Shown here piece by piece: positions 2,855-11,133 of a stretch of DNA of 64,000 nt. The notes below the pieces were generated by a model. That model searched no databases, was not told the DNA's origin, and saw only the letters and a list, made by a program, of their open reading frames with translations. The position numbers and the translations under genes were made by a program. Where the stretch lies: positions 1,302,001 to 1,366,000 of the forward strand of contig NZ_JAOCQD020000002.1 in the NCBI RefSeq assembly GCF_025290835.2. Reading direction: 5' to 3'. This stretch comes from Aquabacterium sp. OR-4 (GTDB lineage: Bacteria > Pseudomonadota > Gammaproteobacteria > Burkholderiales > Burkholderiaceae_C). Each line of letters begins with the position of its first letter. The first letter of the stretch is position 1.

Positions 2855-3130
2855 CCCTAGTCCAGTGAAACCGAGAAATCGGATGTGCGCAGGGGTTTGG
2901 CAGGGCAGGCGACAAGGCGCGGCCCGCAGCCCAGGCTAAACGCCTGGGCAAGGGTTGCAACACCGGCGCATGCCCTGCCAGACCCCTGCCCGCAGGGTGG
3001 GCACCTGTCAGGGGAGCCCTCGTCGTTGCCGGTGCTCGCCGGGTGCCCAACCCGGCTGCGCCCGGCGCCTAGATGGCGCCCCTGACAGGTACCCACGCAC
3101 ATCCGATTTCTCGGTTTCACTGGACTAGGG
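2855..3130. repeat. 276-bp inverted-repeat element with two nested hairpins
   Basis: Positions 2855-2889 and 3096-3130 are perfect 35-bp inverted repeats (outer ends CCCTAG...CTAGGG). Between them, 2890-2907 pairs with 2971-2988 (18 bp, one G-T pair) and encloses an 8-bp hairpin (2929-2936/2942-2949, loop TAAAC). Then 2998-3014 pairs with 3079-3095 (16 of 17) and encloses a 7-bp hairpin (3038-3044/3050-3056, 5-nt loop). The whole can fold as a Y-shaped three-way junction. The right end provides the last Pro codon and TAG stop of the PL1-CE12 gene. No transposase is inside. CTAG at both ends could be a target duplication of an IS5-like insertion, but CTAG is itself palindromic so this cannot be decided. 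The rest of the 446-bp gene-free stretch (2679-2854) is the leader of the receptor gene, with no further clear signal. Confidence 0.85.
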
Positions 3131-5425
3131 TTTGAGCCAGCCGGCGCCGGCCAGGCCCTGCGCCCGCCAGGCCTGCACCGCCAGCGTGGCGGTGGCCTGG
3201 GCGCCGGCCTGCACGTAGTGGGTGTTGTCCTGCAGGCCTTGCGGCAGGCTGTCCCACTGGCCCGGGGCGATGTGCATGAACAAGGCCTTGCTGGCCTCGG
3301 GGCCCAGCTGCTGCAGCTGGGCGCTGGTGAGCGCGTTCAGGTCGATCAGGCCCACGCCCATGGCGGCGGCCACCTGGCGCGTCACGGCCGGGTAGTCGCC
3401 CAGGGTCTGCTGCACCTGGCCTTGCGCGTCGAAGCTGCGCCGCGCCACCGCGGTGGCCAGCAGCGGTGTGGCCCCGCGTGCGCGCAGCTCGGTGATGAAG
3501 CGGCGCAGATAGGCCTGGTAGTCGGTGTGCGCCTCGGCATAACGCGCCGGGTCATCGGCCTTCATGTCGTTGTGCGCAAACTGGATCAGCACCACATCGC
3601 CCGGCGCCAGCTGGCCCAGCACATGGGCCCAGCGCCCCTCGTCGACAAAGCGGCGCGTGCTGCGGCCGTTGGCCGCATGGTTGACCAGGCGCTCGGGCCG
3701 GTCGAGCATCGGGCGCAGGGCCATGCCCCAGCCGCGCTCGGGGTGGGCCGGCAAGGGCGCCTTGTCGGCCATGGTGCTGTCACCCACCAGGTGCAGGGCC
3801 GGGTGCAGCGTGGCGCGCGGCAGCGGCGGGCTGGCCTTGCCGGCGCTGGGCACCGGCATGTGTTTCGAGACCAGGCTGGCCAGGTACAGCTCGAGCTCGG
3901 TGTAGCCGGTGTAGGGGTCGGTGCGCGCGCCGTCGGCGGCATCGGCCGGGTCCAGGCCACGCTGGCGTTCCCAGGCATCGGGCATGCCGTCGCGGTCGGC
4001 GTCGGGCGGCGGCGGCAGGCTCTTCAGCAGCGGCCAGCCGCCCACCTGGGCCTGGCTGTCGATCAGGCGGCCGCCGCGCTGCCTGAACTGCTGCAGCACG
4101 CGCTGGTCCACCGCGTCGCGCACCAGCACCGCGCCGGCATGGGCCAGCACGCGCTGCTCGGCCTCGGCCGCGGCCACGGTGTGCACCGGCCCCAGGTTCA
4201 GCGGCGCGGCCAGCCAGTAGCCGGCGGGCAGGCCCTGCGGCAGGTGTTTGGGATGGGCGCGCCACAGGCTGCGGGCATCGGCGGGCAGCTGCCCGTCCAT
4301 CTGGTTGCCCTCGGCATGGGCCTGGGCCAGCGGGCTGCTTTCCTCGAACGCCCAGGCGCCCTGGCTGGACGGGCCGCGCCGGTAGCTGTTGGCCACAAAG
4401 CCGTAGGTGCTGCGCGTGGCGGTGTCGAGGTTGTAGCCGGCGCGCTCGCGGCCCCAGTCGTAGAACAGGTTGTTGCGGAACTCGAAGAAGCCGCCCTCGG
4501 CGTCCAGCGCCGGGCCGTGCCAGTTGCCCGGCCGCGGCATGCGGTCGGCATGGTGGGCCCACAGGTTGTGCTGGAAGCTCAGGCGCGCGCCGCGCCCGGC
4601 GCGCAGCAGGGTGCCGAAGCCGTGCTTGTGCGGCGCCTTCACGCGGTTGGCATCGAGTGATTCGCTGATCAGGCACCACTGCACGCTCACCGCGTCGAAG
4701 CTGCGCTCGGGCCGGTCGAAGCGGGCGCTGGCCGACAGCACCTCGTCGGTGCTCCAGCTGGCCGAGACATGGTCGATGACGATGCGCCGGCCCGAGACGA
4801 TGCCGATGGCATCGCCATCGACCCCGCTCTCGTCGCCCAGGCGGCTGCGGATGAAGCGCAGCACCACGTCGTCGGCGGCGATCTCCAGCGGCTGGTCGCG
4901 CAGCGTGATGCCGTCGCCCGGCGCGGTCTGGCCGGCGATGGTGATGCGGCCGTTCCTGACCACCAGCGGGGTCTTCAGCGCGATGGTGCCCGAGACCTCG
5001 AAGACCACGGTGCGCGGCCCCTGGGCTTCGACCGCGGCGCGCAGCGAGCCGGGGCCGCTGTCGCCGAGGTTGCTGACGAAGATCACCCGCCCGCCGCGCC
5101 CGCCCAGCGCGAAGCGGCCTGCGCCCTCGGCGCCCGGAAAGGCCGGCAGGCCCTCGTCGCGCGCGCCGTCGGTGGCCTTCCAGCCCGGCGGCACGCTCAC
5201 TGGGCTACCTTCAGGCTGCGCCTTCCGGTTTTCGCCTTGGGGGCGGCCCGGCGGGCTCATGGCCGGGCGGCCGGCGGCGGCGGCCACCTCCACGGCCGTG
5301 GCGCCCTGCGGCGCGGCGCCCTGCAGCGCGCAGGCGGCCAGGCCCAGCGGCAGCAGCAGGGCCGCCAGCCGGGTGAGGGCCGGCCGTGCAGCCCGGTGGC
5401 GGGCCGGGGTCAGGCGCAGCCGCAT
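3125..5425 (-). CDS. Pectate lyase PL1 - rhamnogalacturonan acetylesterase CE12 fusion lipoprotein
   Basis: A 766-residue two-enzyme protein. An N-terminal signal with lipobox LAAC (Cys32) points to a lipid-anchored protein. Residues about 93-470 are a PL1-type parallel beta helix (AFPGAEGAG start, VIDHVSASWSTDE about 216-228, HADRMPRP about 292-299 with the R-x-P-x-R-like catalytic region), ending in a calcium-loop-like DADRDGMPDAWE. Residues about 543-766 are an SGNH esterase of the CE12 type: GDS with Ser550, GRSTRR about 587, FAHND about 616-620 and DNTH about 733-736. It would cleave de-esterified homogalacturonan and remove acetyl groups from rhamnogalacturonan. Its start overlaps the upstream receptor stop by ATGA, so the two are translationally coupled. 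The stop codon lies in the right arm of the inverted-repeat element. The domain calls are strong; the acetylesterase substrate is inferred from family. Confidence 0.88.
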   Translation of the reverse strand: MRLRLTPARHRAARPALTRLAALLLPLGLAACALQGAAPQGATAVEVAAAAGRPAMSPPGRPQGENRKAQPEGSPVSVPPGWKATDGARDEGLPAFPGAEGAGRFALGGRGGRVIFVSNLGDSGPGSLRAAVEAQGPRTVVFEVSGTIALKTPLVVRNGRITIAGQTAPGDGITLRDQPLEIAADDVVLRFIRSRLGDESGVDGDAIGIVSGRRIVIDHVSASWSTDEVLSASARFDRPERSFDAVSVQWCLISESLDANRVKAPHKHGFGTLLRAGRGARLSFQHNLWAHHADRMPRPGNWHGPALDAEGGFFEFRNNLFYDWGRERAGYNLDTATRSTYGFVANSYRRGPSSQGAWAFEESSPLAQAHAEGNQMDGQLPADARSLWRAHPKHLPQGLPAGYWLAAPLNLGPVHTVAAAEAEQRVLAHAGAVLVRDAVDQRVLQQFRQRGGRLIDSQAQVGGWPLLKSLPPPPDADRDGMPDAWERQRGLDPADAADGARTDPYTGYTELELYLASLVSKHMPVPSAGKASPPLPRATLHPALHLVGDSTMADKAPLPAHPERGWGMALRPMLDRPERLVNHAANGRSTRRFVDEGRWAHVLGQLAPGDVVLIQFAHNDMKADDPARYAEAHTDYQAYLRRFITELRARGATPLLATAVARRSFDAQGQVQQTLGDYPAVTRQVAAAMGVGLIDLNALTSAQLQQLGPEASKALFMHIAPGQWDSLPQGLQDNTHYVQAGAQATATLAVQAWRAQGLAGAGWLKP

Positions 5426-8301: not shown

Positions 8302-11133
8302 TCAGGGCACCGGCACCCAGCCGCCCGGCGCGCCGGTGGCGGCGGTGCTGCGCGCAAACACCTCGGCGCGCGTGCCCAGGCCGGTGGTGCTGCCCAGCGG
8401 CCTGGCCAGCTGCACGCTGCTGGCGCTGCCAGCCACCGTGACCGTGGCCAGGCCCAGACGGGCGCCCAGGTCCAGCGGCAGGCCGGCCAGATCGGTGCTG
8501 CCCAGCTCGCGCCAGCCGGCGCTGTCGGTGCTGGCGCCGGTGGCCGTGCCGGCCCAGGGCGGCGGGTTGCTGCTGCAGCTGCCGCGGCCGGTGCCGGTCT
8601 TGCTGCTGCCGGTGCCCACGCACCAGCCGATGGGCAGGATGTGGCTGTCCATGCGCGTGTTCAGGTAGGCCACGTTGTCCACGTAGCTGGAGCTGGTGGT
8701 GCCGCCGCTGCGTGCCAGGTAGGCCTGGGTGACACCCGGGCCGGCGGTCAGGCGGCTGTTGAGGAACACGAAGCCGGCATCGCCCGCGGTGGCCCGTGCC
8801 TGCACGATGTAGCCGGGCGAGCTGCTGGCGGGGTCGAACACCGAGCGGATCTCGCAGTCCTCGAACAGCGCGGCCATCACGTTGCCCCAGATGAAGTCGA
8901 CGTTGCCGCTGACCAGCGACTGGTAGATCCAGGCATAGCCCTTGAGCTGCAGCGTGTCCTGCTCGCTCAGAAAGTCCATCTCGCGGGCCACCAGGCGGGC
9001 GGCAGCGGCCGTGGTGCCGGTGTTGAAGTACAGCGCCTCGGCCTGGTTGTCGTAGACGCCCAGGCGGCCGTGCGGGTTCTCCAGCGTGAAGCCCTGCAGC
9101 GTCAGCAGGTCGGCGTTCTCGACCAGCAGCACCGCACGCCCGCCACCCAGCACGCGGTGGCCGGGCACCCGCCCCGAGCTGCCGAGGGCCGTGCCGGCGC
9201 TGGTGGCGGTGCTGCCGCTGCCCGCATTGAGCGATTCGAAGTTGGACGCGCCCACGCGCACACCGCCGCGGCTTTCGCCCACGATGCGCAGATTGGCCAC
9301 GTTGCGCAGCACGGCCAGCTCGGGGTAGTGGCCGTTCTTCAGCGTGATGGTCTTGGCCGTGGCCGCGCTGTTGCAGCCATGGCTGGCCGCGGCGGCGCTG
9401 GCGCAGTGGCTCATCACCCAGTTCAGCGCGCCCTGCAGGGTCTGGAAGTCGGCGCTGCCGCCGTCATCGTCCACCGTGATGCTGGTGTAGCCGGCCGGCC
9501 GCGCCCGCGTGGTGAAGCGCCAGCTGGCCCCGGCGAACGGCGCCGCGTTGACCGTGCCGGCCAGCGCATCGGCGCTCACCGTCACGGTGTACTGCGTGGC
9601 CCAGTCGAGCCGGTGGTTGTGCAGGCGGATCTGCGCCAGGTTGGCGCTGATGCTCACCGGCCGATACCACACGAAGCGCGCGCGGGCGCTGCTGTCGGGC
9701 ATGGCGCCCAGGCCCAGCGCATCGATCTCGAGGTTGTGGCGCGAGATCGCCGTCTGCGTGTCGCCGGCCGAGGGCGCGCTCGACAGGTCGATGCTGTCGA
9801 CCAGCGCGTTGTCGCTGCTGCGCCGCACCGTCACCGTGCCGCTGCCGGTGAGCCGCGGCGCGGCGTCGAAGGCCAGTTGCAGCAGGGTGTCGGTGTGCAC
9901 GCCGGTGGCGCCGTCGGCCGGGCGCAGGCTGCCCGGCGTGGCGCCGATCACCGCCGTGCCGGTGAGCGTGCTGGCGATGCGGCCGGCACCGGCCTTGGCC
10001 AGCGCATTGGCCTTCACCAAAGCAGCCGGGCGCAGCGTGTAGGCATAGGGAATGGTCCAGCTGCTGCCGCTGGTGGCCGGGCAGCCGGCCAGCGCGGCGC
10101 CGTTGAGCACCGAGCCGGTGTCCACAAAGCTGCTGCTGGCCGTGGCGTTGAGCGTCTGCACCACGCTGGCACAGCCACCGGCACCGGTGATGGCAAACAC
10201 GTTGGCCTGCGAGATCACCTGGCCGGCCGTGCCCACGCCCAGGCTGTAGGCGTGGCGGTAGCTGGCCGCGCCGGTGCTGTTGACGTGGTAGTTGTTGTAC
10301 ACGTGCACCTGGCCATAACGCACACGCGGCGCGCGCTGCACGATGCTGGTGAACACGTTGTTGGCGATGGTGACCTTGAGCTTGCCGCTGTCGGCGCTGA
10401 AGCTGTCGCTGTGGCCGATCAGCAGCGCCTTGTCATGCCGGTCGAACAGGTTGTAGGTGATGCTGACGTGGTTGGCGCCGCGCGTGATGTCGATGGCGCC
10501 GTCGTGGCACTGGCGCGTCTTGCCGTTCTCGATCGGCAGCGTGTCGTCGGTGGTGGGCGCGTCGGTGATCGTGTTGCGGTCGATCCACACATGGTCGGCG
10601 CCCTGCACGGTGATGGCGTCGTAGGCGGCGTTCCAGCTGCCGGTGCTGCCGTCGCTGGGGTCCCACACGGGTGCGATGTCGCAGGGCGCCACCAGGCTCA
10701 GGTTGCGCACGATGACATTGCGCACGGCAATGATGTCGATGCCGCCGTTGACCAGCTGGGCCGCGGGGCCGGCGCCGATCAGCGTGGTGTTGCTGCTGAG
10801 CTTCAGGCGCGAGCGGGCGCCCTGGTCGGCCGCGCTGGTGTAGGGCACGCCGTCGCTCATGTCGATGCGCCCGGTCACGCGGATGATCTTGGGCTGAGCC
10901 CCGGCGCGGGCCAGCGCCGCCAGCAGCTCGCCGCGGTTGGCCACGCTGTAGATGTGCTCGCTGGTGGCGGCGCTGCCGCCGCTGGTGCCACCCGCGGTGC
11001 CGGCCCAGCCGTCGGCCGGTGCCGCTTCGCGCGCCGGATCGAGGGCGGCCTGCGCGCCCGCGGCGGCCAGGGCCGCGCACAGGGCCAGCGCCCAGCGCGC
11101 CGGCTGCGGTGGATGTCGGGTCGGGTGGGGCAT
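8302..11133 (-). CDS. Pectate lyase PL1 - pectin methylesterase CE8 fusion, secreted
   Basis: A 943-residue secreted enzyme. GGAG precedes the ATG by seven bases; the signal peptide ends near AAGAQA (residue about 29). Residues about 45-380 are a PL1 pectate lyase with VWIDRNTITDAP, DGAIDITRG followed by HDKALLIGHSDS (the PL1 calcium-site region, about 211-244) and QRAPRVRYG (about 266-274). Residues about 400-545 look like an Ig-like spacer (start RPADGATGV, end WRFTT). Residues about 550-880 are a CE8 pectin methylesterase with QDTL (Asp726, general acid), NVDFIWG (Asp746, nucleophile) and QAR (about 778-780). One chain could thus demethylate pectin and cut the exposed polygalacturonate. 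It is the first gene of the receptor/lyase operon on this strand. Confidence 0.92.
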   Translation of the reverse strand: MPHPTRHPPQPARWALALCAALAAAGAQAALDPAREAAPADGWAGTAGGTSGGSAATSEHIYSVANRGELLAALARAGAQPKIIRVTGRIDMSDGVPYTSAADQGARSRLKLSSNTTLIGAGPAAQLVNGGIDIIAVRNVIVRNLSLVAPCDIAPVWDPSDGSTGSWNAAYDAITVQGADHVWIDRNTITDAPTTDDTLPIENGKTRQCHDGAIDITRGANHVSITYNLFDRHDKALLIGHSDSFSADSGKLKVTIANNVFTSIVQRAPRVRYGQVHVYNNYHVNSTGAASYRHAYSLGVGTAGQVISQANVFAITGAGGCASVVQTLNATASSSFVDTGSVLNGAALAGCPATSGSSWTIPYAYTLRPAALVKANALAKAGAGRIASTLTGTAVIGATPGSLRPADGATGVHTDTLLQLAFDAAPRLTGSGTVTVRRSSDNALVDSIDLSSAPSAGDTQTAISRHNLEIDALGLGAMPDSSARARFVWYRPVSISANLAQIRLHNHRLDWATQYTVTVSADALAGTVNAAPFAGASWRFTTRARPAGYTSITVDDDGGSADFQTLQGALNWVMSHCASAAAASHGCNSAATAKTITLKNGHYPELAVLRNVANLRIVGESRGGVRVGASNFESLNAGSGSTATSAGTALGSSGRVPGHRVLGGGRAVLLVENADLLTLQGFTLENPHGRLGVYDNQAEALYFNTGTTAAAARLVAREMDFLSEQDTLQLKGYAWIYQSLVSGNVDFIWGNVMAALFEDCEIRSVFDPASSSPGYIVQARATAGDAGFVFLNSRLTAGPGVTQAYLARSGGTTSSSYVDNVAYLNTRMDSHILPIGWCVGTGSSKTGTGRGSCSSNPPPWAGTATGASTDSAGWRELGSTDLAGLPLDLGARLGLATVTVAGSASSVQLARPLGSTTGLGTRAEVFARSTAATGAPGGWVPVP

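Follow-up and report, generated by a model that had tools for sequence, protein, structure and literature searches.

A CTAG-bounded, probable MITE of Aquabacterium sp. OR-4 with a double-hairpin core shared by elements of other Pseudomonadota

Within the window, by which we mean the whole stretch of 64,000 nucleotides of Aquabacterium sp. OR-4 DNA that was analysed, lies a short, multi-copy, gene-less element that has the size, the copy number and the terminal inverted repeats of a MITE. We consider it probable, with a probability of a little under 0.8, that this element is a MITE mobilised in trans. The DDE transposase, supplied by a separate insertion sequence (IS), would recognise the element's ends of about 30 bp and insert it at CTAG.

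Extent and parts of the element

The element proper reaches from CTAG to CTAG and measures 272 bp (2857-3128). The perfect 35-bp inverted ends described in the initial annotation are present (2855-2889 versus 3096-3130), and their outermost CC/GG is a chance flank, since the other four full copies in the genome match from CTAG to CTAG only. The following features were assigned.

2857-3128, no strand: whole element, the extent common to five copies
2857-2889, plus strand: left terminal inverted repeat including CTAG, 33 bases identical to the right arm
3096-3128, minus strand: right terminal inverted repeat including CTAG, 33 bases identical to the left arm
2857-2860, no strand: CTAG of the left end; the target is duplicated either as CTAG or as the TA within it (CTAG at both ends in five copies; single CTAG in the empty site corresponding to copy L003 in relative G008)
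3125-3128, no strand: right CTAG, whose minus-strand TAG is the stop codon of the gene at 3125-5425 (from sequence, ORF list and copy ends)
2889-2989, plus strand: hairpin half A (covariance model R1, 88.0 bits; half A is in the training set)
2997-3096, minus strand: hairpin half B, in opposite orientation (R1, 95.2 bits; half B is in the training set)
2990-2996, no strand: centre CCGCAGG between the halves, forming a small CCC...GGG hairpin with its neighbours (from sequence)
2915-2920, plus strand: loop motif AGGCGC of half A (read from sequence; columns conserved)
2957-2962, plus strand: loop motif GCAACA of half A (read from sequence; columns conserved)
3065-3070, minus strand: loop motif AGGCGC of half B (read from sequence; columns conserved)
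3024-3029, minus strand: loop motif GCAACG of half B (read from sequence; columns conserved)

Folding agrees with the two two-tier hairpins with 18- and 17-bp stems that had been described; we read the outer stems as roughly 19 and 18 bp long, each with a single T.G wobble. The two strands fold at -221.9 and -219.3 kcal/mol (z -19.2 and -15.2), and none of 200 shuffles was as stable. A single open reading frame of at least 80 amino acids lies inside the element; it encodes 87 aa and overlaps the hairpins.

The gene at 3125-5425, on the minus strand, adjoins the element. It had been called a PL1-CE12 gene. Pfam gives one family for its protein, a GDSL lipase domain at residues 547-702, with no PL1 at E <= 0.001. 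The right end of the element had also been said to supply the stop codon of this gene, and the minus-strand TAG is indeed there, as CTA at 3125-3127, but the triplet belongs to the CTAG target. The stop codon of the neighbouring gene is thus part of the insertion target, hence an element that ends a gene. Elsewhere in the window, the gene at 8302-11133 encodes a single protein that combines pectate lyase and pectinesterase domains (Pfam).

Copies in the genome and the CTAG target

Five full copies, 97-99% identical, are dispersed over four contigs of the OR-4 genome (G000), as would be expected from the MITE-like, small non-autonomous mobile element that the initial annotation had suspected, and CTAG stands at both ends of all five. 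A 24-base arm pattern with up to 3 mismatches matched the genome 13 times (12 exact, one with one mismatch) and its reversed control not once, and a solo arm lies at C1:206602. Near C1:2222258-2222320, a palindrome of 62 bp consists of two arms with no core, and arm-only palindromes without the core occur also at L042, L094, L104, L108, L269 and L270, as though a deletion between the repeats had removed the interior.

The target could be read at the site of one copy, L003. Among six same-genus relatives, the right flank of this site was found in all six and both flanks in five, and the element was absent from all six. In one relative, G008, the orthologous gene closes with a single CTAG, the TAG of which serves as its stop codon, and in the other five it ends at a stop without CTAG. 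Since the single CTAG of G008 is the native stop, the stop codon was the target at this site and was restored on insertion. The comparison of one CTAG in the empty site with two in the filled one shows a target duplication, read at this one site, where duplication of TA and of CTAG are indistinguishable. By eye, target duplications were not readable at several further elements, L017, L021, L027 and L067 among them. At the locus of the window copy, relative G004 is without the element, and the exact site does not align. The proposal of a CTAG-targeting element is therefore upheld both by the ends of the copies and by the empty site in G008, and CTAG is confirmed as the target at one resolved site.

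Distribution of the core

A BLAST search gave matches in 13 of 100 genomes, the own genome counted. The covariance model matched 134 of 200 family genomes at E <= 1e-3, a lenient threshold with 20 candidates scored per genome, at which other hairpins may be included. At E <= 1e-8, it matched 48 of 276 class genomes and 20 of 299 phylum genomes, the own genome counted in both, and nine of the latter lie outside the class. Parsing of the loci collected yielded 88 distinct two-half elements, every one of them with terminal repeats scoring at least 13, as against 5 of 2318 random placements; the terminal repeats are outside the covariance model, and the parsing omits single-half loci such as L118. 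The layout is fixed, with ends of about 31 bp (median 31, quartiles 30-33), a core of 207 bp (206-208), halves of 100-101 and a centre of mostly 3-7 bp. At L118, a single recognised half lies between terminal repeats, and at L124 the second half lies at a distance.

The arm of the window copy matched four of 399 family genomes, again counting its own, with elements in G157, G648 and G103. A relative with the same ends occurs in a metagenome-assembled genome (MAG; L040, JARXKP010000037.1), and a member with other ends in the Variovorax paradoxus plasmid NZ_CP138516.1 (one feature in its gene table). Among named plasmid records, neither the window arm nor the L040 element had a match and the L033 element had one; named phage records gave none for the L040 element. 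Against Rfam, six loci gave no matches at the gathering score, and a separate search that admitted E values up to 10 gave 17 matches, all below threshold. The core was not found described in the literature searched, which took in little subscription literature and included the accessible portions of PMC10969869, PMC4853749, PMC3189936, PMC3733652 and PMC8794818.

Conserved loops and covarying stems

Both halves of the element are one two-tier hairpin of about 100 nt in opposite orientations. From the outside inwards, the module has about 21 bp of outer stem, one mismatch followed by two pairs, an internal loop AGGCG / GCAAC, and then two inner stems with a small loop. In an alignment of 29 halves, taken by eye for diversity from 51 found by pattern (L022 was moved by one base), 94.8% of cells were paired, compared with 62.0% in shuffles, and 31 of 34 pairs changed on both sides, compared with a shuffle mean of 26.2. 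Covariation reached 0.848, against 0.219 (sd 0.015) in shuffled and at most 0.187 in slid versions, and RNAalifold on the aligned halves gave 31/35. The patterns used to select training halves and parsed elements require the loop motifs, and the invariance of the motif in 29/29 halves is partly built in.

Because the training halves had been picked with the motif, the test was repeated on 118 model matches at 67 loci outside the training set; one of these, the plus-strand row of L065, only mirrors a match found on the opposite strand. AGGC and AAC were both in place in 114 of them, an upper bound, as the model favours the motif. The loop columns had a top-letter share of 0.98-1.00, as against a median of 0.46 for outer-stem columns, and covariation was 0.977, as against 0.207 (sd 0.007) in shuffles. 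Further pair types numbered 130, with 130.8 in shuffles, and hence showed no excess. The covariation score is the telling measure here, two-sided changes and pair types being little above or equal to shuffles. In L230-L232, which were found by their arms alone, reading by eye gave AGGCG in 6/6 halves and CAAC in 6/6. One half of L231 (G648:C721) keeps both loop motifs and has lost the inner stem-loop between them. Two elements of viral contigs found by their ends alone (L165, L167) are AT-richer, and by eye their core looks like a diverged AAGG...AACG version. The initial annotation had held that a lack of any other copy and of covariation would speak against a mobile or structured family; five copies in the genome, relatives elsewhere and covarying stems were found.

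Since template switching can make paired changes in one step, the covariation shows maintained palindromy, and the conserved loops are a better sign of selection than the covarying stems. Such events have been described for RNA stems (in the part consulted of PMC8794818) and for the arms of inverted repeats (likewise in PMC8604942). The paired stems might accordingly be kept by template switching during replication, with selection on the loops only and none on the fold, and of all the alternatives we give this one the most weight, while still thinking it somewhat improbable. In its favour, both arms of the window copy have C in place of G at mirror-image positions, a change that is absent from the other four copies and that a single event would produce. 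On the other side, stem lengths, the internal mismatch and loop sizes do not vary even where the stems differ greatly, a constancy that switching by itself would not call for.

Stop codons and strand preference

We regard as unlikely the explanation that the hairpins act as RNA past the stop codon, where they would stabilise, terminate or process the message, and that the copies are kept for that. The stable fold of both strands speaks for it, as does the position of the copies in OR-4: six of the ten window-class ends, in four of the five copies, close an open frame of at least 100 codons with the TAG of CTAG, compared with 54 of 183 CTAG sites in the control (p 0.044). With the second class of ends in this genome, GAGGGTGTCCCC, seven of nine TGA-preceded arms follow a frame of at least 327 codons (control 238 of 1382 TGA, p 0.0001). 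The placement of the window-class copies, however, is accounted for by the CTAG target, and elsewhere, in other genomes, stops adjoin 26 of 76 elements, each counted with both its ends, which is not above the same control of 54/183. A crude gene prediction for the window placed five CTGAG sites at stops and a further 27 elsewhere in non-coding DNA. Since a GC content of 71.7% makes long open frames common by chance, the stop-codon placement is a lead only, and its simplest cause may be that insertions survive where they leave a gene intact.

A role as RNA might also be read from the wobble pairs, with G.T exceeding A.C in the stems by 73 to 22 in the motif's orientation (106 representatives). 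Two positions with a recurrent T.G, however, account for about half of that excess; without them the same representatives give 42 to 21 (p 0.011), and the first count had been 58 to 43 (101 halves); further counts were 137 to 54 (222) and 96 to 29 (133 representatives). This modest excess, which bears on the putative structured 3' RNA limiting readthrough of the initial annotation, is compatible with a single strand folded on itself, whether of RNA or of DNA, and we build nothing on it. The RNA role is further weakened by the lack of an Rfam match and by the halves lying on opposite strands, so that no single transcript carries both in the favoured orientation. We prefer a DNA role of the hairpins in the spread of the element.

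Classes of ends and candidate transposases

The same core is joined to many classes of ends; OR-4 holds two, those of the window copy and of L009, and genome G027 at least three. The CTAGGGCCTGTTMACAC class (L063) agrees in 18 of its outer 19 bases with the end of a Polaromonas sp. JS666 element that is annotated as IS5-family, and the CTAGTGTA class (L121) in 24/32 bases with the end of an IS630-type element of OR-4 itself, whose homologue in Variovorax sp. WDL1 is annotated IS630. Given that some ends match the IS5 family and others the IS630 type, one core would ride with more than one type of transposase. The ends of the window copy agree with the IS630 end in 10/11 bases at the tip with CTAG and in 15/32 overall; with the JS666 IS5 end, the one IS5 element compared, the figures are 5/11 and 12/32, which is not a match. 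The IS630-type element has eight near-identical copies in OR-4 (L150 and seven other loci), two of them 1.2 kb apart on C2, which suggests that it may have been active recently.

No autonomous partner with the ends of the window copy was found in its own genome, in 399 family genomes or in viral contigs. A partner with shared ends in the same genome is not required of old MITEs. PF13358 transposases occur in three of ten genomes searched, so that seven of those carriers are now without one. For the CTAGGGCCTGTTARC class, G032 and G027 gave 42 pattern matches (24 and 18), and at eight loci read by eye no transposase lay beside the end. The GAGGGTGTCCCC pattern (<= 3 mismatches) matched OR-4 22 times, with three matches in the control; the nine loci listed, of which L264 is the first match, are the L009 element together with arms or remnants, with no transposase in the 150 bases read. 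L009 and L264 (G000:C1:1631083-1631349) are one two-half element with TCA on both sides, and L266-L273 are eight further loci, solo arms or remnants, with TGA in front of each.

These end classes bear on the explanation that the element is a remnant of one insertion sequence after internal deletion. Terminal repeats of some classes do resemble IS ends, but the same core comes with many classes, three in G027 alone, and in the JS666 IS5 and WDL1 IS630 elements only short stretches separate the ends from the transposase gene, with no core there by eye; we therefore think this origin quite improbable. Perfect inverted ends can also come from hairpin artefacts of assembly, a possibility that the initial annotation had raised against the element and that now has next to no standing, given five copies with different flanks on four contigs, relatives in other genomes, and the same architecture in the MAG record and the V. 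paradoxus plasmid.

Comparison with known elements

Nezha is an IS630/Tc1-mariner MITE, short and gene-less, with terminal repeats and a TA-type target. Among short non-autonomous elements, Tn3-derived TIMEs have inverted Tn3 ends and produce 5-bp duplications. Our element is set apart from Nezha by its conserved two-tier double hairpin and by its several unrelated classes of ends. It resembles TIMEs in being short and non-autonomous with inverted ends, and differs from them in its CTAG ends, which do not fit Tn3 ends and 5-bp duplications. Nezha is named among MITEs in the part consulted of PMC3733652; for TIMEs, see PMC4133298.

MITEPsy1 of Pseudomonas syringae is an IS5-type MITE of 100 bp with 18-bp ends that has been shown to transpose (PMC3189936, in part). 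Like the element described here, it is gene-less and has IS-like inverted ends, and it duplicates CTAG or YTAA; unlike it, MITEPsy1 comes without mention of a double-hairpin core in the accessible text of that source. REPs are palindromes of 20-40 bp with GTAG or CGTC tags (sections consulted of PMC3733652). Our element shares with REP, BIME and REPIN sequences the palindromic repeats and the pairing in opposite orientation (partly after the same sections of PMC3733652), and it differs from REPs in its halves of about 100 nt, its terminal repeats of about 31 bp and its CTAG-type targets. As a candidate, membership in REP/REPIN was rejected, the tagged palindrome as defined in those sections of PMC3733652 not being found in the element sequence.

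Proposed mechanism and implications

If the element is a MITE mobilised in trans, as we propose, an IS630- or IS5-type transposase may move the window's class, with IS630 the better fit at the tip. The inverted pair would give one correctly oriented hairpin on either strand, and its function would then be independent of orientation. The hairpins may be needed in cis for spread, for example through folding of the single strand and binding of a host factor, as suggested by loops that are kept while everything around them changes. Copies would persist where the restored target leaves the neighbouring gene whole, as at a stop codon.

MITEs are usually taken as decayed scraps of one insertion sequence. 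What is unusual here is a precise core with conserved loops that is common to elements with IS5-type and IS630-type ends. The combination of this core and its loops with freely changing paired stems and many classes of ends implies a function in cis beyond transposase binding. Tentatively, and as a suggestion that we ourselves hold to be rather doubtful, the double-hairpin core, conserved across much of the Pseudomonadota, may be a transposase-agnostic chassis with IS5- and IS630-type ends, whose conserved loops, on a folded single strand, would be read by a conserved host factor, enabling the elements to spread with any transposase available, the inverted pair offering a readable hairpin on either strand.

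Our findings suggest that the fast-changing palindromes of these elements allow selection and template switching to be separated, and the CTAG target explains how such an element can end a gene at the gene's own stop codon.
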